A stretch of DNA of 47,880 nucleotides, from positions 1 through 47,880 of the forward strand of contig JAAVDB010000014.1 of the NCBI GenBank assembly GCA_014802015.1. Direction: 5' to 3'. Positions 11,195 to 22,544 of this stretch are shown one piece after another; the first letter of the stretch is position 1; each line of letters starts with the position of its first letter. The stretch comes from Bacteroides sp. (GTDB lineage Bacteria; Bacteroidota; Bacteroidia; Bacteroidales; Muribaculaceae). The notes under the pieces were generated by a model. It made no database searches and was not told the DNA's origin. It worked only from the letters and a program-made list of their open reading frames with translations. Position numbers and translations under genes: made by a program.

Positions 11195-12778
11195 TTAAAT
11201 TCCTAAATATTCCGACGTGAATGTCATATTCTGTATATTAAAGGTGAGTCTGTAATTGCCACTCGCCGTTATTCGCCATTTATAGTCAGGCCTGTTGATA
11301 TATTCTGTAATGGCACTTTCCATCATAGGGATAGTTACAGATTGATTCGTTGGAATCAGGTAATTATCACCATCGTTTCTCACGCCCGGTCTAAAGAACG
11401 GCTGTGCCCAGAATTGTTCTGCGTCAGGCGTAGAATTATTCCAGTAGGCCTTAAACGTATTACTTCCCGACTTGGTTACCAGTCTGCCTTCATAAATAAA
11501 TACGTCAACATTATCTTCCGATGCCTTGACAGGGACACCGTCATTAGGGGTCCAGTCAGGCTTATCCGGGAAAACGTCACCAATCAGATATAGGTATACA
11601 TCGCCACGCGTATAGTCGTGCACTGTCATTCTATCCTTGTCGCATTGCCACCAGTTTCCTAAGGCAGTCTCTTGTGCGGGAGTAAGGTGAGTGCCGTCTG
11701 CCGTTATATTGCCTGAAGGTCGGATAGCGTCAGTCCTGTCGCCGGTCACCCTCCAGCCGGAGCATGAGGTTGGAGCCATATTGGCGGTATACTCGGTGTT
11801 GCCGTCCTTTCCCTTGCTGAAAGTCCAGATTACACCGTTTTGATCCACAAAATTGAAGATTACATACATGTCCTCAGGATAGAATTGAGAAGATGAATAT
11901 TCAAAACCCATCCAATTGGATGTGGATGCCGTAGCGAAATTAAACAGAGACTGTCCCGGCCATGTGGTCGGCGAGGTACGGTTGCCGTCTTCATCCTCGA
12001 TGTACATATACACATGTGTCGCTCCGGCCACCATGAAGTGAGTTCTTTTTGCCAATCCTTCCGCTTCACTTGATCTGTTGATACACCTTACCGAACAACC
12101 ATACGTTAAATCCCTATTGTTGGGATCATAGACATGACCGTTGTAATAGGTGGTGGTACTTCCGGCCATAACAAGCATATTAAGCCATTTGCCGATTTCG
12201 TCTTTCTCCGTTGCTGTTGAGGCCGTGCTTGTCCAATAGTATCCCGAACGGCCCTCGCCGGTAAGGTTACCGCCCTGATACATCATCGCTTTCGGGAAGT
12301 ATACTAACCCTACGGATGTTTCATAATATGCAGGATACAGACTTCCATCATATTCAGTATGGAATGAAGAGGATGTGCGTATTGAGCCCCATTCGTTTTT
12401 GTTTGGAATGCTGTAGCCCGGAGGAGATACATTATACATCACCGGATCCTCATATTGTGTCTCCTGATGAGCGACATAATAGTATCCGCCGGCAGCCTTC
12501 ACGGTGCCTTTGACTTCGTCGCCGTTCACACCACGGATATAATCCTGAGCAGACTTGGCCGTGAGGTTGCGGTCGAGCATATAGCGAGGTTTACCGTCGA
12601 CCTCTACAGGCACCACCTCGTAGTAGTAATAATCAGGATCTACACCTGTTATATCAAGACGATATTCATTGTCATCCTTATGGAAAAATCCTGTATGGTA
12701 CGTGTCAAAGAAATATATTTCCGACGTACCATCGTTGAATGTGAATAAAAAATTTATCTTGCCGACTATGGGCGTCAA
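11195..12778 (-). pseudogene. 3' part of the split fimbrial tip-like gene of operon A
   Basis: This open frame (527 codons from a TTG at 12778) has no signal peptide or credible start; the codons back to the first upstream stop lie in the inserted element. It contains a Fibrobacter-succinogenes-paralogous (FISUMP)-like segment (DRNLTAKSAQDY, PPGYSIPNKNEWGS, YYWTSTAS, VRCI) and then a starch-binding-like segment (MYIEDEDGNRT, WPGQSLFNF). A second similar beta-rich module (VYLYLIGDVFPDKPDW) and a C terminus NIQNMTFTSEYLGI follow. Removing the element 12767-16987 with one CGAC copy joins it in frame to the lipoprotein half at 16988-18707, giving about 1095 codons. By position and size it matches the 1144-residue tip-like protein of operon B. 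It is probably not expressed as a functional protein unless the element leaves. Confidence 0.8.
12763..12766. repeat. Left copy of the 4-bp target duplication CGAC
   Basis: CGAC here and at 16988-16991 bracket the inserted element. On each side exactly 10 bp separate the duplication from the AAAACG core of the terminal repeat, and joining at this duplication keeps the fimbrial reading frame (TCG GTC GGC AAG). A 5-bp duplication with one mutated base cannot be excluded. Confidence 0.65.
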
Positions 12779-12791
12779 AACGAAGCGTGCA
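12777..12791 (-). repeat. Left-end copy of the 15-bp element-end motif
   Basis: AAAACGAAGCGTGCA on the plus strand reads TGCACGCTTCGTTTT on the minus strand. It differs by one base from the copy at 16941-16955 and by two from the copy at 16963-16977, which point the other way. It is the inner part of the left terminal inverted repeat. A further related copy (TGTACGTTTCGTTTT) lies at 13195-13209 on the plus strand. Confidence 0.75.
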
Positions 12792-12865
12792 CAATTTTGG
12801 GGACATAACGCGCTGACGTGGTGATGATTGGCGTTAAGTCGCTGATTTGAAAAAGTTTAATTTGC

Positions 12866-12947
12866 TTGAATTTAGGTTTAATTTTCGGGGTGTTTCGATT
12901 GTGTTTTAGTTGAATTTAGCTTTAATCAAGTTGAATTTTACTTTAAT
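12866..12947 (+). repeat. Three iteron-like direct repeats
   Basis: TTGAATTTAGGTTTAAT (12866-12882), TTGAATTTAGCTTTAAT (12910-12926) and TTGAATTTTACTTTAAT (12931-12947) are near-identical. The starts are 44 and 21 bp apart, about four and two helical turns. They are likely binding sites for an element or helper protein. Confidence 0.7.
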
Positions 12948-13062
12948 TTTAAACGGCTGACAAACGCTTATTGGCTGGCTAATACGTTGATATTTGGAGA
13001 TATACAAAAAATCGTTTAATCGTGTGAATGTTGATTAAACGGCTTTTAAACGGTTGGGGCTA

Positions 13063-13123
13063 TCTAAAAGCAAATTTGAAAAATGAGACACACTCTAAAA
13101 GCCAAATTTGAGTAATGGGACAC
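13063..13123 (+). repeat. Imperfect direct repeat pair of about 29 bp
   Basis: TCTAAAAGCAAATTTGA...ATGAGACAC (13063-13091) and TCTAAAAGCCAAATTTGA...ATGGGACAC (13094-13123) differ at a few positions and follow each other at a 31-bp period. Confidence 0.7.
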
Positions 13124-13144
13124 CGTTAAATGGGTTTAACGGTG
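13121..13144. terminator. Hairpin downstream of the element regulator gene
   Basis: CACCGTTAAA and TTTAACGGTG form a perfect 10-bp stem with a 4-base loop (TGGG), followed by TTTTGT on the plus strand. It lies about 110 bp beyond the end of the minus-strand HTH gene, so it may end leftward transcription or shield the element end from outside transcription. Confidence 0.5.
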
Positions 13145-13194
13145 TTTTGTGGTTATTTTAAGTGGCTAATATGTAGATTATTATAAAATTTGTG

Positions 13195-13209
13195 TGTACG
13201 TTTCGTTTT
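13195..13209 (+). repeat. Second left-end copy of the element-end motif
   Basis: TGTACGTTTCGTTTT matches the copy at 16941-16955 (TGCACGTTTCGTTTT) at 14 of 15 positions and has the same orientation. A second internal copy, TGCTCGTTTCGTTTT, is at 16751-16765. Confidence 0.65.
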
Positions 13210-13255
13210 TAAAACCGAGTTGGATATACAAAAAATGGGACAAAGCGAACAACTT

Positions 13256-13756
13256 TTAAAGACTCCAAAGAATTTTATTAACATTTGCGTGTTTGGTGTC
13301 TATATCTTTGCATGACGTTTTAAAGGGGTGGAGTATCGCGCTAATAGTCTTCAGATCATTTTTTACCCCGGCTATTGTGGGGAGTTCCTGAAGTGCTGCC
13401 GTTTCTTCTTCTGAAAGCCGATATAAATGGCAAATTGTTTTTAGGTCTATCCCGGCGATGTATAAATAACGGCTTATTTTCTTTATTGAAATATTCTTAT
13501 TTTCAAAGCGCAATAACGACCGCCTATTGATACCAAAGAAATCGGCAATCTTTTGTTTAGAGTCTAAACCGCTTAAAATGGCTTTTATATAGGTTTCAAC
13601 AGTTGGATGATTATCAGGCTTAGGCAGGTTAAATTCCTTAATAACCTTTTGGATATAACGTTCTGAACAACCTACAAAAGAGGCTATTTCCTTTGTTTCT
13701 TTCGGGGTAAAAACTCCGTGATCTAAAAGGTGTAATATAACTTCTTTAAATTTCAT
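13256..13756 (-). CDS. Helix-turn-helix regulator of the inserted element
   Basis: A 166-residue basic protein with two apparent helix-turn-helix segments: about residues 17-45 (PKETKEIASFVGCSERYIQKVI) and 65-85 (SKQKIADFFGINRRSLLRFE). The rest is helical with no recognised enzymatic motif. It is the last gene of the leftward unit (51-, 92-, 166-residue products) and the best candidate for the regulator acting at the palindrome 14359-14375. The start follows a CTAAAATACT box also found before the two upstream genes. It could instead be a replication or transposition accessory protein. Confidence 0.65.
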   Translation of the reverse strand: MKFKEVILHLLDHGVFTPKETKEIASFVGCSERYIQKVIKEFNLPKPDNHPTVETYIKAILSGLDSKQKIADFFGINRRSLLRFENKNISIKKISRYLYIAGIDLKTICHLYRLSEEETAALQELPTIAGVKNDLKTISAILHPFKTSCKDIDTKHANVNKILWSL

Positions 13757-13789
13757 TCAGTATTTTAGCGTTATTATGTTTATGATAAG

Positions 13790-13828
13790 CGCGGCGGCGA
13801 TGTGCAACAAAGGACAACCGCCGCCGCG
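13790..13828 (-). terminator. GC-rich hairpin between the 92-residue gene and the HTH gene
   Basis: CGCGGCGGCG (13790-13799) and CGCCGCCGCG (13819-13828) pair perfectly over 10 bp with a 19-base loop. The hairpin lies 11 bp after the 92-residue gene and has no clear T-run, so it probably attenuates or stabilises the leftward transcript. Confidence 0.55.
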
Positions 13829-13839
13829 TGGTAGGTGTT

Positions 13840-14118
13840 TTATTTTGCGATGATTGATAAGCGCGCTCCTCCGGGGTTATCGTTCATGTTTTCCACGGCT
13901 TCGATAATGTTTTGGAGGGTAAAAAGCGCGTCAGCATAATAGCCGCTTAATATCTCCTCACCTTTGCCGAAATAGTTCACGATGAGGAAATAGAGGGTTT
14001 GAAGTTCGCGGCGAATCTGTTCTGGGGTACTGTCACAGACAAACAACTCAATGAGTTCGTCAAGGTCATAGTCAGCGGCTTTTTTTACCACTAACGGAGC
14101 GTTAATTAAATTGCTCAT
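13840..14118 (-). CDS. 92-residue protein of unknown function in the inserted element
   Basis: An acidic, mostly helical protein (DYDLDELIELFVCDSTPEQI, then LFTLQNIIEAVENM). No signal peptide, metal site or DNA-binding motif is recognised. Its start overlaps the end of the 51-residue gene by 17 bases, and both starts are preceded by the same 21-base leader, which argues that both are translated. A phage-type regulatory or anti-host function is possible but not shown. Confidence 0.6.
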   Translation of the reverse strand: MSNLINAPLVVKKAADYDLDELIELFVCDSTPEQIRRELQTLYFLIVNYFGKGEEILSGYYADALFTLQNIIEAVENMNDNPGGARLSIIAK

Positions 14119-14257
14119 AACATAAGTATTTTAGGAAGTTGAAAAAATAGCGACCCTTAGGTGTCCTACGCTTACTTATGTAAAAGCGTCGGGGCGTTTC
14201 CGCGCTCCGCACCATAGGTCGCAAATACCGTTTTAATGTATTGTCTAAAGTGTTCAT
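14102..14257 (-). CDS. 51-residue basic leader protein of the inserted element
   Basis: ATG at 14257 to TAA at 14102 encodes 51 residues, strongly basic (KRYLRPMVRSAETPRRFYIS, then KRRTPKGRYFFNFLKYL). It lies about 20 bp downstream of a consensus leftward promoter. The 21-base sequence overlapping and preceding its ATG (plus strand CATAACATAAGTATTTTAGGA) is repeated at the ATG of the 92-residue gene at 14118. The overlap with that gene suggests coupling. It may bind nucleic acid, judged only from charge. Confidence 0.55.
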   Translation of the reverse strand: MNTLDNTLKRYLRPMVRSAETPRRFYISKRRTPKGRYFFNFLKYLCYEQFN

Positions 14258-14280
14258 AACATAAGTATTTTAGGATGTTG

Positions 14281-14311
14281 CAAAAGTAACTAAATAATCT
14301 AACCCGGCAAA
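14281..14311 (-). promoter_or_regulatory. Leftward promoter of the inserted element
   Basis: Read on the minus strand, TTTG (14311-14308) and TACTTTTG (14288-14281) are 19 bp apart, an exact fit to the Bacteroidetes consensus. The first element lies in one of two GGCAAAATT direct repeats (14306-14314 and 14321-14329). Transcription should start near 14276, just upstream of the 51-residue gene. Confidence 0.75.
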
Positions 14312-14341
14312 ATTTCCGGGGGCAAAATTGGCGTATTAAAA

Positions 14342-14375
14342 AGATTTGCACAAAAAAAGTGTAAATCTTTTACAC
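14342..14375. promoter_or_regulatory. Overlapping operator palindromes between the divergent promoters
   Basis: GTGTAAA-TCT-TTTACAC (14359-14375) is a perfect 7-bp inverted repeat ending 4 bp before the rightward TTTG element. It overlaps a second near-perfect inverted repeat, AGATTTGCAC...GTGTAAATCT, spanning about 14342-14368. The shared arm could let two regulator dimers compete. The element's HTH protein is the obvious candidate ligand. Confidence 0.65.
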
Positions 14376-14379
14376 TCTA

Positions 14380-14411
14380 TTTGCGCCTGGTGGGGCGTGG
14401 TCGTACCTTTG
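14380..14411 (+). promoter_or_regulatory. Rightward promoter of the capsid operon
   Basis: TTTG at 14380-14383 and TACCTTTG at 14404-14411, 20 bp apart, match the Bacteroidetes consensus exactly. The capsid operon start codon follows at 14436. Confidence 0.75.
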
Positions 14412-14435
14412 CAACAACAAAACAAATACAACTAA

Positions 14436-15608
14436 ATGAGCAAAGAAAAAGAAGATAACAAGCCTATAACCTTTGTGTTAAGTGATGAGTCCGTAAATAG
14501 TCGCGGTTTTGTTGTATTGACCGAGGGTATAGACACAAGCGTATTTGAGCGCAACCCGGTAATGCTCTACATGCACAACCGGGACGGCAATGTCATAGGA
14601 CGCTGGGAGAATATCCGCAAGGAAGAAAAACGGCTTTTAGCCGATGCCGTGTTCGATGATAACACCGAGTTAGGGGCGCAAGTTAAAAAGCAAGTGGAGG
14701 GCGGTTTCCTCCGCGCCGTGTCTATCGGTATAGAGGCAATAAAGAAAGAGTATTTAAACGGTGTTGAAACAGTAGTTAAATGCCGTTTAATTGAAGTTTC
14801 GGTCGTGGATATTCCAAGCAATAGTAACGCCGTTAAGCTGATGCACCGTTCCGGCGGTTACGTCTATCGGCTGACTGACTTAGAGGAGGAAGCGCCGCAA
14901 GACCTTAAAACGGCTTTAATTTCGCTTCTGAGCCTTTCAAGCACTGCAAGTGATGAAGATGTTATCCGAGCCGTTAAAACGCTTTTAGAGGGGCGAGAAA
15001 CGCCCGAGGAAGCCGTTGACGACGCAATTATGCGCGGATATATTGACGGCGGACAGCGTGGCACGTTCATAGCTTTGGCACGTGGCAACCGGGCGGCGTT
15101 CCGGGACTTCGTAAAAACACAAGGCGCGGCACAATCGGGCGAAATTACCCGACTTATAGATGATGCACAAAGGAAGCGTAAATTATTAGGGTGTGAGCGT
15201 GGTGTTTACGAGCGTATAGGCGCAAAAATAGGCGCAAAGATGTTAGGCGAGGTATTGTTCACGTTGCGCCCCATGGCGAAGCCGACGGAGTTAATACACG
15301 GCGGTGCGGCATACTCTGATCGCTCACGATGGACACTTGACGATTACCGCAAGTTTGCACCGCAAGAGCTGGAGAACGCCCCCGAGTTATACGCCCGGTT
15401 GGTAAAAGCCGAAATGGGCGAGGACGTAGGGGCGCACTCGCTGGAATGGTATCGAAAGAATAACCCGGAATATTTGCGCGAGCACCCCGAATTTTACGCG
15501 CAAAAATTAGAGGAAGCCAAGAGCGCAACACGTCAAAGAGATAGAGAAGATCGTATTAAAGAAGGAATGAAACTACCCAAATTAACATATTACCGTAATG
15601 GCACTTAA
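14436..15608 (+). CDS. Phage prohead protease, probably fused to a scaffold domain
   Basis: A 390-residue protein. The N-terminal 140 residues fit the caudovirus prohead protease fold: the opening VNSRGFVVLTEGIDTSVFER, a candidate catalytic His in LYMHNRD, a candidate catalytic Ser in LRAVSIGIEA and the closing block EVSVVDIPSNSNA. The C-terminal 250 residues are charged and helical, as expected for a scaffold that is cleaved during head maturation. This is the layout of Mu gpI. An in-frame ATG at 15030 could give a separate scaffold product, as Mu gpZ, but I see no decisive ribosome site. The stop overlaps the capsid gene by 11 bp. Confidence 0.75.
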   Translation: MSKEKEDNKPITFVLSDESVNSRGFVVLTEGIDTSVFERNPVMLYMHNRDGNVIGRWENIRKEEKRLLADAVFDDNTELGAQVKKQVEGGFLRAVSIGIEAIKKEYLNGVETVVKCRLIEVSVVDIPSNSNAVKLMHRSGGYVYRLTDLEEEAPQDLKTALISLLSLSSTASDEDVIRAVKTLLEGRETPEEAVDDAIMRGYIDGGQRGTFIALARGNRAAFRDFVKTQGAAQSGEITRLIDDAQRKRKLLGCERGVYERIGAKIGAKMLGEVLFTLRPMAKPTELIHGGAAYSDRSRWTLDDYRKFAPQELENAPELYARLVKAEMGEDVGAHSLEWYRKNNPEYLREHPEFYAQKLEEAKSATRQRDREDRIKEGMKLPKLTYYRNGT

Positions 15609-16476
15609 CAAAGAAATATGGATTAATCAGATTTTATCGGGATTTTACCCCGATGACAGCTTCTTAACAAAGGTTGTCAATTACTCCGAGTTCGTGGATA
15701 ACAACCGCTTGCACATTCCGGCGGCTGGTATTGATCCCAAAGTATTGGTCGACAATACAACCTACCCTATAAAGGTGGTTGAGCGCGAGGATGATGACAA
15801 CGAAATCCCCCTCGCAAAGTTTGAAACAGAAAACACGCTTATACGCCGCCCGGACGCGATAGAATACAGTTATAACAAGCTGGAGAGCGTGATCGGACAG
15901 CACCGCGCAACACTTCGTAAGAGCGTGGCGATGAAAGCGGCTCACGCCTACGCCCCCAAGACCGACACAACCGACACCCCGGTTATACTCACAACGGGCG
16001 CGCCCGTCAATGGTCGCCGCCGTCTGACTTTTGCCGATATTCTGACGCTTAAAGAGCGTTTTGATGAAGCCGGAATCCCTATTGAGGAGCGCTATATCAT
16101 TTTGCACCCTAAGCACGTCAGCGACTTGCTTCTGGAGGATATAAAGCTATTCAAAGACCTCACCGACATAAGGGACGGAGAGCCGCACCAGTTCGCCGGG
16201 TTCGGGTGCTATCAGTTCGCGCAAATGCCGTGTTATAAAGCCGTCAAAGGTGTATTAACAAAAGTTCCTTTTGGAGAGGACGCAACGGCGCAATTTGCTT
16301 CCGTGGCTTTCTACGCTAAAGAGGTGATGAAAGCAGACGGCGACATCTATATGTATAAGAGCGAAGACGACCCCAAAGAGCGCGGCACGATTGTAGGCTT
16401 CGACAAGCGATTTGTCGCCCTGCCTATCCGTGGCAAAGGTATAGGCGCGATTGTCAGCGATGTAGTAACAGAATAA
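15598..16476 (+). CDS. Phage major capsid protein (probable HK97 fold)
   Basis: A 292-residue protein directly after and overlapping the protease gene. Features typical of capsid proteins are the N-terminal MALNKEIWINQILSGFYPDD and a central block (LTFADILTLKERFDEAGIP, then ERYIILHPKHVSDLLL) like the A-domain 'construct and locate' segment of tailed-phage coats. The C terminus is rich in beta strands. Length resembles Mu gpT (about 305). Capsid is favoured over encapsulin because a dedicated prohead protease is encoded with it. If it assembles a shell sized to a 4.2-kb genome, that shell must be very small; this is inference. Confidence 0.72.
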   Translation: MALNKEIWINQILSGFYPDDSFLTKVVNYSEFVDNNRLHIPAAGIDPKVLVDNTTYPIKVVEREDDDNEIPLAKFETENTLIRRPDAIEYSYNKLESVIGQHRATLRKSVAMKAAHAYAPKTDTTDTPVILTTGAPVNGRRRLTFADILTLKERFDEAGIPIEERYIILHPKHVSDLLLEDIKLFKDLTDIRDGEPHQFAGFGCYQFAQMPCYKAVKGVLTKVPFGEDATAQFASVAFYAKEVMKADGDIYMYKSEDDPKERGTIVGFDKRFVALPIRGKGIGAIVSDVVTE

Positions 16477-16490
16477 AGCAAATAACCCCT

Positions 16491-16664
16491 ATGCACATAA
16501 GCACAAAGACACGTGCCCGGAGAGCGCAAGAAATAGCCGCTAAACACTACGAAGAGGGCAATCAGTCAAAGAGCTTAAAAGCAGTTTGGCGGCGATACAT
16601 TGAGCCACAAATGGGGATTTGCTATGCAAGTTTTTTGGCTTATTTGAAAATGAAGTTAGACTAA
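16491..16664 (+). CDS. 57-residue basic protein after the capsid gene
   Basis: ATG at 16491 to TAA at 16662-16664 encodes 57 residues, beginning MHISTKTRARRAQEIAAKHY and containing AVWRRYIEPQMGICYASFLA. The pattern (basic helix, then a short helix-turn-helix-like C terminus ending in YLKMKLD) resembles small Bacteroidales prophage proteins I recall, but no family can be named. It starts 14 bp after the capsid stop and is followed by a strong terminator, so it is the last gene of the capsid operon. Confidence 0.6.
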   Translation: MHISTKTRARRAQEIAAKHYEEGNQSKSLKAVWRRYIEPQMGICYASFLAYLKMKLD

Positions 16665-16684
16665 TTCCTACGACATGCAAACGC

Positions 16685-16728
16685 GGCGCGGCGGTTCATT
16701 TAACACTATGACCGCCGCGCCTATTTTT
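16685..16728 (+). terminator. Intrinsic terminator of the capsid operon
   Basis: GGCGCGGCGGT (16685-16695) and ACCGCCGCGCC (16711-16721) form a perfect 11-bp GC-rich stem, followed directly by TATTTTT. This is the clearest intrinsic terminator in the element. Confidence 0.85.
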
Positions 16729-16940
16729 AACATTTGAGGGGGTGAAATAATGCTCGTTTCGTTTTTTTTAAGTTGTTCGCAAATAAGTATTAAAAAGACA
16801 ATAGTCTAATATTTAATATATTACAATTTGTTCGCTTAAATTCCCCCCCCTTTGTTCCGCTGGTAACATAAAAATTAATGTAAATAGCAATATTATATTG
16901 GAAATCAAACTATTAAACACTAAAAGATGAGCGAACAAAA
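16729..16940. other. Noncoding AT-rich right end of the inserted element
   Basis: No credible gene is seen. It holds another end-motif copy (TGCTCGTTTCGTTTT, 16751-16765) and AAGTTGTTCGC (16770-16780), which is the inverse of GCGAACAACTT at 13245-13255. TTGTTCGC-type words recur near 16828 and 16929. The tail of the split fimbrial frame reads in from the right and stops at 16920. Confidence 0.6.
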
Positions 16941-16977
16941 TGCACGTTTCGTTTTAGAAAGTTGCACGTTACGTTTT
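16941..16977 (+). repeat. Right-end tandem pair of element-end motifs, 22-bp period
   Basis: TGCACGTTTCGTTTT (16941-16955) and TGCACGTTACGTTTT (16963-16977) are directly repeated with starts exactly 22 bp apart. The outer one ends 10 bp before the right element boundary, mirroring the left end. Mu attR has adjacent 22-bp transposase sites, so this spacing is suggestive of MuA-like binding. Confidence 0.75.
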
Positions 16978-16987
16978 CGCGATTGTA

Positions 16988-16991
16988 CGAC
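16988..16991. repeat. Right copy of the 4-bp target duplication CGAC
   Basis: It matches CGAC at 12763-12766. On the coding strand it reads GTCG, starting with codon 573 (GTC) of the lipoprotein half; the left copy starts with a GTC codon in the same phase. Confidence 0.65.
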
Positions 16992-18733
16992 CGAGTATTT
17001 ATACTGATCATTATTGTTTCGGGTAATGGTAAAGGTCTTGTTGTCACCATAGTTTGTGATCGTCACATTATTGTCCGTGCAATTGACGACTACGTCTTTG
17101 ATATTATTGAACTTTTCATCTTTATCAAACACCAAAGTGTAGGTATAAGTGGCAAGATTGCCCCCTTCGCCATACATTACGGGAAAATGAAATCCCTGAT
17201 TGCGGACCTTGCCGTTGTTCTCGTCTTCCTGAACTCCCCACAGAAGAGGTGAGCCTGCGACATTACCATTGTCAGTGCTTGACAGAAATGCCCAATAGTC
17301 GTCAAACCTGGTGCCGCCGTTGTAGTTGATGGTCAGAGAAGCCGAGGATAACCGAGATCCATTGAACGGGAGATTTAACTCTACGGGGACTATTCGCTCC
17401 AACCCCATCCACTTCACGGCAATGTCTGTGCTGATATTACCTGAACCTACGGCAAAATCCAATGGTATGCGATAGATTCGTCCTCTGTCATTCATATCAT
17501 CCCCTATATCAGATCCGAGGTATTCATCACCGGTGACCTCCTCAATTTCTCCAAACGAGAGCCATGCCGCATCAGAAGTATATGTCAGGTCCGTTATCGG
17601 ATCCGTCATATCTTCATCGATCTTAGAGAATACCTTGATATAAAGATAAGCTTCATCAATACCTTCATAATTGATTTTATGGCTTACGCCGAGTTCCCGT
17701 ATGCCATCACTGATCATGTTGTAAGAGACCGGGGAATGGTCATGAATCTCATATACTATGTCTGAAGCCGGGTGCAGCGAAGCCTCCTCTGCAGTAGCAT
17801 AGCCGGCACCTTTGACATCCTTAATGATGAACTTATACCAATGGTTTGATTCCTCATTAAGGAAGGCTACGGCACCATCCGTCTTATTGCAGAAATCCAT
17901 GCGGTAATAATATTCCTTACCTTGGAAAGCGGCTTTGGTAATGACATAAATATTTCCAAGAATGGCGTTGGTATTTGTGACATTCCGGGTAGGATGGCAG
18001 TATGAGGCATCAGTATCCTGTATGTCATCCGGGAAGGATTCTACTTTTTTTGCAGCGGAAAGACTCTGCTCAATACCGGCCAGTAATACACTCTCATCGG
18101 CCGTGCCAAACACCTGAAAGGGTCTCGGTGTGGAATTTTCATCATCTCCTGTGGTCACGGTTATCTTTGCCGCATTTCGGTATAGAGGCACTGGAGAATC
18201 CCGGATAACACCACCATCGCTAACCGTCGTTGCACACATCGTAAGATTCTCGGACCGGCTGACGTATCCTACGGAATATGCCTTCAGCCCTGCGATGGTA
18301 AGACCTTTAAGCACATCATCTTCATTGCCGGGATTAGCGATGAAATAATAAGTGAGATTACTGTTCCTCAGTTCTTTATCAAGCTTGAACGACAACTGTA
18401 ATTTATTGTCAGATAGCTCTGTCAGCTTGTTGTTATTCCCATTCAAGCCTGAGGCCGCATAGATATGTTCATACTGCGCGGGCAATGCGTCTTCTGCCGT
18501 ATAAATAAGCACACAGATGTCGTCAACCTGAAATTCAGGATCAGTGGCACGGGACTTGACCATCGTCAGAGCCGGAACATCAAAAGTCAGCACTACCTCT
18601 CCATCCGGTCCGATACCATTCAATTGCGGCACACTGAGATCGTCAGAGCATGATGAGGCTATGAGGACAGCAATTACTGATATGATTACAAATATTTTCC
18701 TAAGCATTGTTTTTTCAATTTTAAACCTCCAAG

Positions 18734-21229
18734 TTATTCAGGTTTCTCAGCGACAAACTGATTACCAACGCGATCGTCAGCATTTTGATTAAACTTCAGC
18801 CAACCCTTTCGTTGAGGGAAATCGAACAGTGGTATACCCACCTCATTATCTTTCGGGAAACGTCTGTTGGCGTCTCCGAAATGCCCGTTGGCAAACATGA
18901 TGAGGGTTTTACCGGGCTCAGCTATATCTGTCAGTTCAAAATAGAACCAACCGTCTGCGTCTCTTTTCATACCGATACCTGGCCATTGAGGGTTATTGTT
19001 ACCGCCTCTGCAATCACCGCACTCCACACCATTGCGGAAATCCTTACAGTAATCTATTTCCTTATTGTACCGTAAATTGGAAATTCTCTCTGACGGTCTC
19101 CAAGTCATGTCGTTACCATCATCAAACATGTACAACCCGGTATCTCTGATTAAGTTGCCTAAATCCGATTTGGGTGATCCTCCCGGATTGTATATGGTAT
19201 TGAAATTGTAGGGCCATCCCCATCCACGGAATGTAATCTTTCCGGTGAATGAATATTCAAGAGCGGAGTCTTTATACACTGTTCCGTCTCCGCCTGTCCA
19301 TCTGTAACCGATAGGCTGGTCAGCCAATGGTTTATTCTGCCATGTACCTTCGTAATCCGCGGGGAACTCCAAGCATTGATATACGTAGATATGAGGATTA
19401 TCCCACCCGTCAGCCTTGAAGTAAATCGTATAATCCGACAGGGTCGGAATCACGTTTATGGTGACGGTCTCCCGCTTGCCTTCAACAAGATTTCCGTTCT
19501 CATCAATCGGGGTGATTGTAAAGGTCAATGTTCGGTTTTCAGTCCAGGTTTCAAGACCTGAGTTCAGACCGCGGAATGACACAGCGTATGTGAAGTCTCC
19601 GTTAACATCCACTGTTACGGGATTTCCTCTTGTCACCTGATCTGAAAACTCATTTGTGTTCGCATTCCATTTGCGGATTTTTATGGCAAAATCCTCAGGA
19701 GTACGGAAATCATCGGCCGGAAGATTATCCCATCCGTCAGCAAGGGCGACCATCACCTTCGGATAGTTGGTATGGATGTTTACGGGCAGTTCTCCCTGAT
19801 ACTCACCTGAAGCTACACGAAGTCTCACATTGATGGTAACAGATGTGGGATCTACCTCAAAATAATTATCCAGATTCAGAGGATAAATGGTTATTTTCTT
19901 ATTTATATTACCGGCTATGATATGAATATAGTCATATTTACCTTCACCGTCTCGGACACTGCGCTTTATCTCCTCGTATTCCTTTACCGGAATAGCGGGA
20001 TTTACCCACACGCGGATCGAGTCCTGCGAGGCATCGATCGAATATTCGAAAAGGTCATAATCCTGTCCACCGAAACTATATTTGGGAGACTTGACATGCA
20101 CGTCATCAGCATCAGAATCATACCAGATTGATGTCACGACACCGGCTGTCACCTCATAGACCTGCTTCTCAACGTGCAGGAATACCGGGCCGTTGAGTGT
20201 AGCAGCGATGAGTTCGGACGTCCAGTCAGTGACAACGAGATCGATCCTGTCGGACGTAACAAGGGTGTAGCGGTAGTGCGTGCCACGGCGTATCATCCTG
20301 ACATCATCGATGGCCGGAGCAGGCAGTACCTCGCCCGGCTCCGTATCGGCTATCTCGCCGAGAGGTAGTGTTATATCCTTATCGCCTATATTGAAAGTCA
20401 TATATGAGCCTTGAGCGGCTTCGGATACGTAACGTTCGGGTATGTAAAACGTTACCGCCTCGGGTGTCGGGTCAGCGTTATCGTAACCGTTCATGTCAGG
20501 AGTGACTGACGGCAGTGTTCCGTAGTTGTAATCCTGATTGAGATATAACAGTGGCTCGCTCTGCGAAAGATTTCCGAACTCCACACCTGCTATACGGACC
20601 GGAAGTCCGTCAATATCCTGCGGAATTATCGTCACCTTAGCGCATGCAAATGTCATAACGGCATATATGGATGCCGCTTCACCGGTATAATCAAACGGCT
20701 CGTTGTCAGTCATGGACTGCGTCACGCCATCGGGTGTCACAGCGAAGAAATCGGTGTGCACACCTGACATCGGGAGACCTTTGTCAGGAATAAGACAATT
20801 ATATTCAGCCGTATACGTGATTATCTCATCACGCAGTGCCGCCTCGGTCTGAGGGAGTGTCGTGACATCGGCATCAGCATCAAAGATATTTGCCACGACA
20901 AAGAAACGGTATTTACCCTGTTCAAGGTCAATGGGATACCGCCTGTATGTCTCTACGAAATCAAGAGGGCTGTTATCGGTCGTCAGTGAGATGATCTGCG
21001 GAGAACCCGACTCGGGAAAAGCGAACAGAAACAGGGATGTATAAATGAGTTCATCGCTGTTGTCGCCGATGGCACGTGAGTTGAAACGGTTAGCCGCCGG
21101 CACATACAGTGTCAGACCTTCATGCGTATCCGGCATGAGACCGCCGTCCGACGCTTCATCGGAACAAGCCGTGCAGAGTCCGAGCAGGACGGCGAGGGAA
21201 ATGATGATATAGCGGAAATTAATATTCAT
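18734..21229 (-). CDS. Large fimbria-associated lipoprotein with a carbohydrate-binding-like C terminus
   Basis: An 831-residue lipoprotein. The start at 21229 (MNINFRYIIISL) gives a proper signal and lipobox (LCTAC, Cys22) and overlaps the previous gene by 11 bp; a longer frame from 21340 lies in that gene. The first 350 residues look like FimA/Mfa beta domains (YRFFVVANIFDADAD, TFACAKVTIIPQDIDG). After these come Ig-like repeats and a Trp-rich C terminus (FRGWGWPYNFNTI, WFYFELTDIAEPGKTLIMFA) resembling starch-binding or SusE/F-like modules. A tip adhesin or minor subunit role is likely. Operon B has no equivalent. Confidence 0.65.
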   Translation of the reverse strand: MNINFRYIIISLAVLLGLCTACSDEASDGGLMPDTHEGLTLYVPAANRFNSRAIGDNSDELIYTSLFLFAFPESGSPQIISLTTDNSPLDFVETYRRYPIDLEQGKYRFFVVANIFDADADVTTLPQTEAALRDEIITYTAEYNCLIPDKGLPMSGVHTDFFAVTPDGVTQSMTDNEPFDYTGEAASIYAVMTFACAKVTIIPQDIDGLPVRIAGVEFGNLSQSEPLLYLNQDYNYGTLPSVTPDMNGYDNADPTPEAVTFYIPERYVSEAAQGSYMTFNIGDKDITLPLGEIADTEPGEVLPAPAIDDVRMIRRGTHYRYTLVTSDRIDLVVTDWTSELIAATLNGPVFLHVEKQVYEVTAGVVTSIWYDSDADDVHVKSPKYSFGGQDYDLFEYSIDASQDSIRVWVNPAIPVKEYEEIKRSVRDGEGKYDYIHIIAGNINKKITIYPLNLDNYFEVDPTSVTINVRLRVASGEYQGELPVNIHTNYPKVMVALADGWDNLPADDFRTPEDFAIKIRKWNANTNEFSDQVTRGNPVTVDVNGDFTYAVSFRGLNSGLETWTENRTLTFTITPIDENGNLVEGKRETVTINVIPTLSDYTIYFKADGWDNPHIYVYQCLEFPADYEGTWQNKPLADQPIGYRWTGGDGTVYKDSALEYSFTGKITFRGWGWPYNFNTIYNPGGSPKSDLGNLIRDTGLYMFDDGNDMTWRPSERISNLRYNKEIDYCKDFRNGVECGDCRGGNNNPQWPGIGMKRDADGWFYFELTDIAEPGKTLIMFANGHFGDANRRFPKDNEVGIPLFDFPQRKGWLKFNQNADDRVGNQFVAEKPE

Positions 21230-22544
21230 ATTCGTAGTCAATTGTCCTCCATTCTTTGACTGCCACATTAAATGTGACAAGTGAGTTGGCAACACTGTTG
21301 ATCGATAGTGTATAGATATGGTTACGGAGAATATAATCACCGAAGTTTAAAGAATTATCCTCATACCCTGTCATGGGCACAATGTATTCACGGGTCACTT
21401 CGGTGCCGTCAGCTTTTCGGGAGAGCGCTATGTTGATGCGATAGGCCGGAAGCCCCTCCCCCGTCTGTGCATCGGTTGTCCGTATTGACATTTCAGGCGC
21501 ATAGCCTACAAAGATATTCCCCTTTCGGCTCTGAGCCGGAATGTCGGTCCATGATGCGGGAATGATGCCGAGACCGTATGCCGAGTTGACTGTGTTTTCA
21601 CTCTCCAAGTCCGTATCAGCGATGACAGGAGTATGCACCTGAGTAGCGTTGATATATGTTAGGGCGCCGTACGGGAGTATATGAATGGCCTGTTGCGTGC
21701 CCACCAGATCGGCAGAGATGATTTTAGGATAACCGGCCTCATTCTTATTCGAGATATTGTCGATAAGGCGGATTTTGGCCAGAGAGCGGAGCATATCCAT
21801 CTCACCGAGATAGGCACGTCCCAACTCGGTGCTGTTGCACAGCGAGCGCTGTGACACGCGAAACGTGTTGGTGCCGAACATAGGCATACACTTCCTATCA
21901 CCCGGATATAAGTCCGTAACCATACCTGACATGGGTGATTGATCCACAACGGCCGGGTTAAAATTACACAGGTCGCTCATAGAGTAAATCCACGGTTCGA
22001 GCTGATTTATGACCGCTGTGTAAGTGTCGCCGGTTATCTCATTCAGACGGCCTGAGGCAATTGCAGCCCGGTCGGAACTGTTAGCCACCATGAGGATACG
22101 AAACTGCACCATCTCGGCACCGTTAGGCTCAAGTTCACGGCCGAGAAGGGATGCGAGCTGAGTTCTGCCAAACGTAATGTTGACCGTATATGATCCGGCA
22201 CCGCCTGACACCTGAACGTTTTCAGCCCCGCTTCCTGTCGGGAAGTCAGTGACCCTCAGCACCAGTTTTTCATTACCTGCGGCGTTAGCCATCTTGGCGA
22301 ATACGAACATACCTATGTCGCTCATGTCAATACCGTCCTCGAAACGGAGATATTCGCTGTCCACCTCGTCATGATTTTGGTCATCAGCGCGCGACCGTGA
22401 ATCGACGGCGGGTGTCAGCATACGGAAACTGAGCATGACATTACCGTCGGAATCCGTATCGTAACAATTCTCAACAGGTTCATCCACCAACGAGCATGAT
22501 GCCAGGAGCAACGATGTGAGAATGATATGAATATATGGTTTCAT
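21219..22544 (-). CDS. Fimbrillin-like lipoprotein, accessory subunit of operon A
   Basis: A 441-residue lipoprotein with lipobox LLASC (Cys17). It has a fimbrillin-like order: N-terminal strand block after the anchor (VMLSFRMLTPAVDS), RILMVANSSDRAAI in the middle, a C-terminal block NHIYTLSINSVANSLVTFNV and a final strand VKEWRTIDYEY. The last strand resembles the donor strand of Bacteroidales type V pili. It lies third in operon A, 30 bp after the Mfa2-like gene, matching the third gene of operon B in position. Confidence 0.75.
   Translation of the reverse strand: MKPYIHIILTSLLLASCSLVDEPVENCYDTDSDGNVMLSFRMLTPAVDSRSRADDQNHDEVDSEYLRFEDGIDMSDIGMFVFAKMANAAGNEKLVLRVTDFPTGSGAENVQVSGGAGSYTVNITFGRTQLASLLGRELEPNGAEMVQFRILMVANSSDRAAIASGRLNEITGDTYTAVINQLEPWIYSMSDLCNFNPAVVDQSPMSGMVTDLYPGDRKCMPMFGTNTFRVSQRSLCNSTELGRAYLGEMDMLRSLAKIRLIDNISNKNEAGYPKIISADLVGTQQAIHILPYGALTYINATQVHTPVIADTDLESENTVNSAYGLGIIPASWTDIPAQSRKGNIFVGYAPEMSIRTTDAQTGEGLPAYRINIALSRKADGTEVTREYIVPMTGYEDNSLNFGDYILRNHIYTLSINSVANSLVTFNVAVKEWRTIDYEYEY

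Follow-up and report, generated by a model that had tools for sequence, protein, structure and literature searches.

A discrete element of 4221 bp was found at positions 12767 to 16987 (plus strand) of contig JAAVDB010000014.1 from the Bacteroides sp. assembly GCA_014802015.1; the stretch analysed, 47,880 nucleotides in all, is called the window below. The element is best read as a member of a lineage of Mu-like transposable phage satellites of Bacteroidales, which would be moved and packaged by helper phages and would bring their own, probably smaller, capsids. The probability of this reading was estimated at about 0.7. It rests on the ends of the element, on its gene content, on related units at other loci, and on the relationship of its major capsid protein (MCP) to those of phages.

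The element is flanked on both edges by direct copies of CGAC, taken as the left (12763 to 12766) and right (16988 to 16991) copies of a target-site duplication, with no strand assigned. After removal of the element and one CGAC, the interrupted host gene on the minus strand (3' part, 11195 to 12766; 5' part, 16988 to 18707) was restored as a single frame of 1095 amino acids. By these two marks the coordinates given in a first-pass annotation of the window were correct to the base. The terminal inverted repeats are imperfect. The left end (12767 to 12791, plus strand) is composed of the spacer TATGGGCGTC and the outer site AAAACGAAGCGTGCA (12777 to 12791), a proposed site for a helper transposase, and the right end, read in reverse, of TACAATCGCG and AAAACGTAACGTGCA. 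Two sites (16941 to 16955 and 16963 to 16977) and a 10-nucleotide terminal spacer make up this right end (16941 to 16987, minus strand). Further inside are the right site AAAACGAAACGAGCA (16751 to 16765, minus strand), the inverted site AAAACGAAACGTACA (13195 to 13209, minus strand), and putatively functional AT-rich direct repeats, TTTAATTTGCTTGAATTT and similar copies (12855 to 12950, plus strand). Sites like AAAACGNARCGTGCA (at most two mismatches) occurred five times in the whole window, every time within the element; shuffled sequence gave a mean of 0.51, and none of 100 shuffles reached five.

The six proteins of the element were scanned against Pfam and PHROGs. Encoded on the plus strand are an S78-type head protease of 390 amino acids (14436 to 15608; Pfam Peptidase_S78, E 6.8e-7; PHROG 80, head maturation protease, E 2.9e-18), the MCP of 292 amino acids (15598 to 16476; PHROG 267, major head protein, E 1.6e-13), and a 57-amino-acid protein, g57 (16491 to 16664), whose homologues in Mu-like phages lie towards the end of the early region. 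The MCP also matched Pfam Phage_capsid_2 below the curated cut-off (E 0.001), and a profile built from 55 related MCPs matched PDB chain 9jwb_A, 'Major capsid protein' (E 1.8e-5). The minus strand carries a 166-amino-acid helix-turn-helix (HTH) protein (13256 to 13756), a putative regulator whose HTH match lies just under the Pfam cut-off, a 92-amino-acid protein without a family match (13840 to 14118), and a 51-amino-acid frame (14102 to 14257) matched in 9 of 14 related loci. Between the two gene groups stand the palindrome GTGTAAATCTTTTACAC (14359 to 14375, no strand assigned), which is also present in late regions of Mu-like prophages, and a promoter-like sequence (14380 to 14411, plus strand; read from the sequence, no scan run) of TTTG (14380 to 14383) and TACCTTTG (14404 to 14411), which we take to be like the Bacteroides promoter motif. 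A G+C-rich hairpin followed by T's (16685 to 16721, plus strand) was judged terminator-like by eye, no scan being run. No integrase, transposase, recombinase, portal or tail match was obtained for the six proteins in either database, and the terminase matches were confined to weak small-terminase family hits (E 0.015 to 0.021) on the HTH stretch of the 166-amino-acid protein. The first-pass annotation had described a protease gene followed by a capsid gene, three small genes, and the absence of recombinase, terminase, portal and tail genes. The family matches agree with this description, the weak small-terminase hits apart, and the three small genes correspond to the 92- and 51-amino-acid frames and g57.

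Related units were sought with the MCP. A scan of 84,980 species genomes, restricted to close relatives, yielded 10 loci with 73 to 98% identity. In a sample of the same family, 6 of 397 genomes matched the MCP (E<=1e-60; identity 66 to 98%), the own genome among them; these fall in 3 of 30 genera, and two represent new loci. Both ends were visible in 11 of the 12 related loci, locus L054 showing the right end only. An exact 4-bp duplication was present in all 12 elements (11 two-ended loci and the window), and in none did it extend to 5 bp; for L052 and L053 this test is weaker because their edges were placed from their mutual alignment plus the duplication. Unit lengths ranged from 3727 to 4713 bp, with a median of about 4.2 kb (n=12, window included). 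An end design consisting of a TAT or TAC start, a 10-nucleotide spacer and an AAAACG-type site was common to 10 of the 12 elements. The two ends of L051 are swapped relative to the genes, and L052 and L053 show a different end sequence (TATCCCCCACACC...), which suggests another helper type.

The gene content of these loci was also similar. The protease followed by the MCP was matched in 12 of 12 related loci; by tblastn, g57 was matched in all except L051 and L129, the HTH gene in all except L051, L052, L053 and L054, and the 92-amino-acid protein in L046, L048 and L128 only. Loci L046 to L056 gave no transposase, portal, TerL or tail marker match, save for a neck-like gene in L048. This extra gene (7135 to 7626 of L048) shows 41% identity over 113 amino acids to a Porphyromonas phage neck protein. 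Up to the element edge, locus L056 from IMG/VR and L055 share 99.6% identity over 3831 bp, and the right flanks of the two differ, a sign of recent movement. Near-identical satellite forms occur across Bacteroidales families. The expectation that a like unit would be met at different sites, with like ends, size and gene order, was thus confirmed by the related loci.

The first-pass annotation had named as its main alternative an internally deleted Mu-like prophage, a decaying remnant that would never occur elsewhere with the same boundaries. Since every assignable part of the element is a part of a Mu-like phage, deletion from a phage is its likely remote origin. As an explanation of this copy, it is already contradicted by the like units at many sites, each with its own duplication, by a separate MCP clade, by purifying selection, and by the intact frames; we consider it highly improbable.

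Two more satellite units were detected in the own genome, each split across contigs, giving three units in total. At their ends, contigs C42 and C30 carry the 3' portion of a related MCP (80% at the amino acid level), then a 54-amino-acid g57 homologue and a right end; contigs C36 and C17 carry left ends and an HTH homologue. The unit flanks pair as GATT (C36/C42) and ATTA (C17/C30). Both right-end contigs (loci L010 and L011) break within the same 119 bp of the satellite MCP, which indicates that repeated satellites hide in assembly gaps. The joined C36/C42 flanks gave an open frame starting with MDAALKSQF, presumably related to TerB; this in-frame join is weak support because a spanning frame likewise arose from a mismatched control join, and none came from the C17/C30 join.

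The same genome contains Mu-like prophage sequence. Contig C44 holds a left end, TATGGGCATG-AAAACGAAGCGAGCA, an S24-type repressor and the first 380 amino acids of a MuA-like protein that runs off the contig. Contig C27 holds a right end, TATAATCGCG-AAAACGAAACGTACA, a tail-collar protein and a methyltransferase-like protein whose match is below the Pfam cut-off. GTTT flanks both prophage ends. The prophage left end and the satellite share the outer site, the AT-rich direct repeats and the inner inverted site AAAACGAAACGTACA. A link to a Mu-like helper had been proposed in the first-pass annotation, and it is upheld by this prophage with the same end design.

Similar ends were found in other Mu-like phages. 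Porphyromonas phage BK068093 starts with TATAGGGCAC-AAAACGACACGGGA and ends, in reverse, with TATAATCGGC-AAAACGAAACGGGA. For the Porphyromonas transposable phages, grouped with Hankyphage, conserved termini and '4 bp bounding repeats' are reported (PMC10367356). Satellite L049 is located in the genome of Prevotella sp. MGM1. That genome also has a Mu-like prophage, L109, in which MuA, MuB, portal and TerL were matched; its end, TACGGGGGAT-AAAACGAAATG, is similar but not identical to the satellite end.

The palindrome was sought as an exact copy of GTGTAAANNNTTTACAC in 19 genomes (11 satellite and eight prophage genomes). It was found in 12 places in 8 of the 19 genomes, every one in a satellite or in a prophage late region, and the reversed control gave none. 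Satellites account for five places (the own element, L046, L047, L048 and L055) and Mu-like prophages for the other seven (genome G009 with five copies, G058 and G028 with one each). In L038, L062 and L130 the palindrome was read next to terS, in the divergent terminase/protease region of the prophage; the remaining G009 copies are near-identical to L038. Genome G009 contains six Mu-like prophage-region copies in total (L038 to L043), four of which are 99.86 to 100% identical to L038 over 17.5 to 18 kb. The protease-MCP block sits behind the palindrome in 5 of the 11 satellite genomes.

A g57 profile matched 7 of 28 phage-type loci (E<=1e-4; L058, L059, L062, L064, L071, L074 and L110), where the homologues lie between MuB or gam and the neck gene, as far as those genes were matched. 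The g57 sequence itself matched faecal contigs L131 and L132. In phage Mu, the regulator gene mor occupies about the same place as these g57-like genes, so g57 may be a late regulator, which is offered as a lead only.

Selection on the capsid genes was assessed by Nei-Gojobori dN/dS among seven satellites. Values for the MCP were 0.036 to 0.116, with the near-identical pair L046/L047 and the L050 pairs (dS saturated) left out and the L055 pairs close to saturation; for the protease they were 0.157 to 0.363 where dS was computable. The satellite MCPs are under purifying selection. The Mu-type ends and the lack of a transposase would also suit a non-autonomous transposon, similar to a miniature inverted-repeat transposable element (MITE), hopping within cells in which a Mu-like phage is active and carrying the capsid genes as passengers of little role. 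Passengers should decay, and the low MCP dN/dS together with the protease-MCP order kept in all 12 related loci make this account very unlikely.

The history of the MCP was examined with two trees. The first was built from 30 MCPs; a branch with support of 90/93, recovered in 98% of 200 bootstrap trees, divided 13 satellites from 16 phages. When IMG/VR was searched with a profile of satellite MCPs, 62 loci were obtained. In 13 of these, a marker search found protease and MCP together with MuA-like and/or MuB-like genes, and matched neither portal nor TerL. Among the 13, L139 is nearly a copy of L137, and TerS was weakly matched in L150. The elements of about 8 kb are represented by L057 with L136 (contig positions 1511 to 9854), by L148 (215 to 8114) and by L137 to L152; portal absence is less firm for them than for the 4-kb units because many of the contigs are fragments. 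L057 is complete; its 8344 bp are flanked on each side by CATG and lie within a presumed glycerate kinase gene. It encodes an rve-type transposase, a MuB-like AAA protein, a ClpP-type head protease, the MCP, a g57 homologue and two further frames, read as what is left of a baseplate hub in view of the hub-like L148 gene that matches them. In an end scan of 13 IMG/VR loci besides L057, a tentative pair was obtained only in L148 (TTTG).

The second tree comprised 55 MCPs: that of the window, those of 7 related genome loci out of 12, and 47 from among the 62 IMG/VR loci; near-copies, some fragments and others were left out. A branch with support of 100/99 split 20 satellite-labelled from 31 phage-labelled rows, 29 of the latter having a portal or TerL match and two (L160 and L177) being labelled phage though showing neither. 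Four unlabelled rows were placed with the satellites. A nested group (support 100/100) was formed by the eight rows lacking a transposase. In the simplest history suggested by these trees, a capsid-bearing element that had its own transposase arose a single time, and the transposase was later lost once. On the whole, we regard it as rather probable that one element of about 8 kb with MuA/MuB and its own capsid arose from a Mu-like phage and that transposase loss led to the 4.2-kb form, which helpers would insert, replicate, induce and package in trans and which would exclude helpers through its own small head.

For such a satellite the following course can be proposed. MuA/MuB-type proteins of the helper would use the terminal AAAACGAAACG sites to insert the element and to replicate it in trans, and the shared ends strongly suggest this role for helper MuA/MuB. 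The late programme of the helper, acting at or near the palindrome, would switch on protease, MCP and g57; induction together with the helper late genes is suggested by the palindrome in part of the family. The satellite MCP and protease would then build heads of their own, probably smaller ones, to be completed by helper portal, terminase (headful, from the shared left end) and tails. The particles would carry the 4.2-kb element and some host DNA, with the helper genome of about 34 kb excluded. A small head with borrowed terminase and tails had already been conjectured in the first-pass annotation. If volume is scaled from a T=7 head with about 40 kb, a T=3 head would have room for about 11 kb, sufficient for the 4.2-kb or the 8-kb form together with host DNA. 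In Hankyphage, headful packaging is reported to start at the left end, with 29 to 31 bp of host DNA there and 1 to 2.3 kb at the right (PMC12135933). The satellite retains a phage-type left end, so a helper terminase may load satellite DNA, and we infer that the element is packaged. The best reason for keeping MCP and protease would be a head sized for the small genome and too small for that of the helper.

Two other roles for the capsid genes were weighed. A helper-moved element could use MCP and protease to interfere with the helper through mixed or dead-end capsids, as competition or defence, with no packaging of itself. This would explain why both genes are conserved without portal or terminase, and in part of the family the palindrome ties expression to the helper late phase. 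The near-identical spread across Bacteroidales families, however, suggests transfer from cell to cell, most easily by packaging, and the 8-kb relatives retain the same MCP; we hold interference to be unlikely. A phage-derived shell serving the host, such as an encapsulin-like compartment or a gene transfer device, might equally consist of a head protease and an MCP, with neither portal nor terminase. Such a role is barely credible for an element that breaks a host gene, occupies varied sites, has the ends of a mobile element and is sparse in the family (6 of 397 genomes).

Several results weigh against a helper-packaged satellite with its own small head. The exact palindrome is missing from 6 of the 11 satellite genomes and 5 of the 8 prophage genomes, and the own MuA-like fragment, used as query, found a match in 3 of the 11 satellite genomes, including the own, although these misses say little because the query is partial. 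As most satellite genomes are without a matched MuA-like gene and the exact palindrome, the odds of the whole history set out above, from the 8-kb form to a 4.2-kb form served by helpers in trans, were lowered. The end class of L052 and L053 was not found in the Mu-like prophage region examined from the L052 genome and could be traced to no helper. In the own genome, C44 and C27 are joined into one prophage by GTTT alone, their joined flanks were not found as one piece among 60 relatives, and TerL gave no match (one query; assembly 86.95% complete). The predicted MCP structure was poor (mean pLDDT 53.7).

Around the element, the interrupted host gene has a weak Fib_succ_major match only. It is adjoined by a gene for an 868-amino-acid protein (18734 to 21340 of the window) with a CBM26 match. 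Four faecal contigs were considered as free satellites and rejected: MT837556 and MT839416 (L005, L006) and MT839649 and MT838475 (L131, L132) fit in size, and their frames show phage pieces. They were judged by reading frames (tail-like or MuB-like genes), with no family search.

If correct, this would be a new satellite mode, in which the transposase of the helper serves for insertion and replication and the satellite brings the head shell only. A series running from phage by way of an 8-kb form to the 4.2-kb form can be read from the MCP tree, and a testable question is raised for gut Mu-like phages. Smaller heads and partial packaging are reported for Hankyphage (PMC12135933). As the Prevotella sp. 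MGM1 genome record contains a unit, a bench test may be possible.

Like satellites in general, the element is a mobile element set apart from its helper, with a lineage of its own in MCP trees and duplications, and is without genes for its own propagation. To our knowledge, a genome of 4.2 kb is very small among satellites. The ocean Charybdis elements have about 4.6 kb and are without hallmark genes (PMC12324425). Mu-like phages of Bacteroidales (BK068093, Hankyphage) have in common with the element the end design, the 4-bp duplication and the order of S78 protease and MCP; the g57 homologue occurs in several of their prophages and the palindrome in 3 of 8 prophage genomes, as in the satellite. 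The satellite MCP is 29 to 30% identical to Porphyromonas phage MCPs. Compared with a complete Mu-like phage, the 4.2-kb unit gave no MuA or other transposase, MuB, terminase, portal, neck or tail match. Capsid-forming phage-inducible chromosomal islands (cf-PICIs) likewise carry their own MCP and head protease, but they have in addition a portal, connectors, the two terminase subunits and an HNH endonuclease and need tails only (PMC10690885); none of these was matched in the element. The Streptomyces satellites MulchRoom and MiniFlayer encode capsid genes as the element does and differ in a full capsid and packaging set, virulent helpers and direct terminal repeats (PMC10690885). The phage-inducible chromosomal minimalist islands (PICMIs) of Vibrionaceae are small and of reduced gene content like the element, and are described as encoding no capsid remodelling. 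MITEs are also moved in trans through terminal sites; they have about 300 nucleotides and no genes (PMC11389934), whereas the element has protein-coding genes. In the open-licence literature, covered by titles and the beginnings of abstracts, no transposable or Mu-like capsid-bearing satellite was found described for Bacteroidales. The element is proposed as a new variant of phage satellite, apart from cf-PICIs, PICMIs and MITEs.

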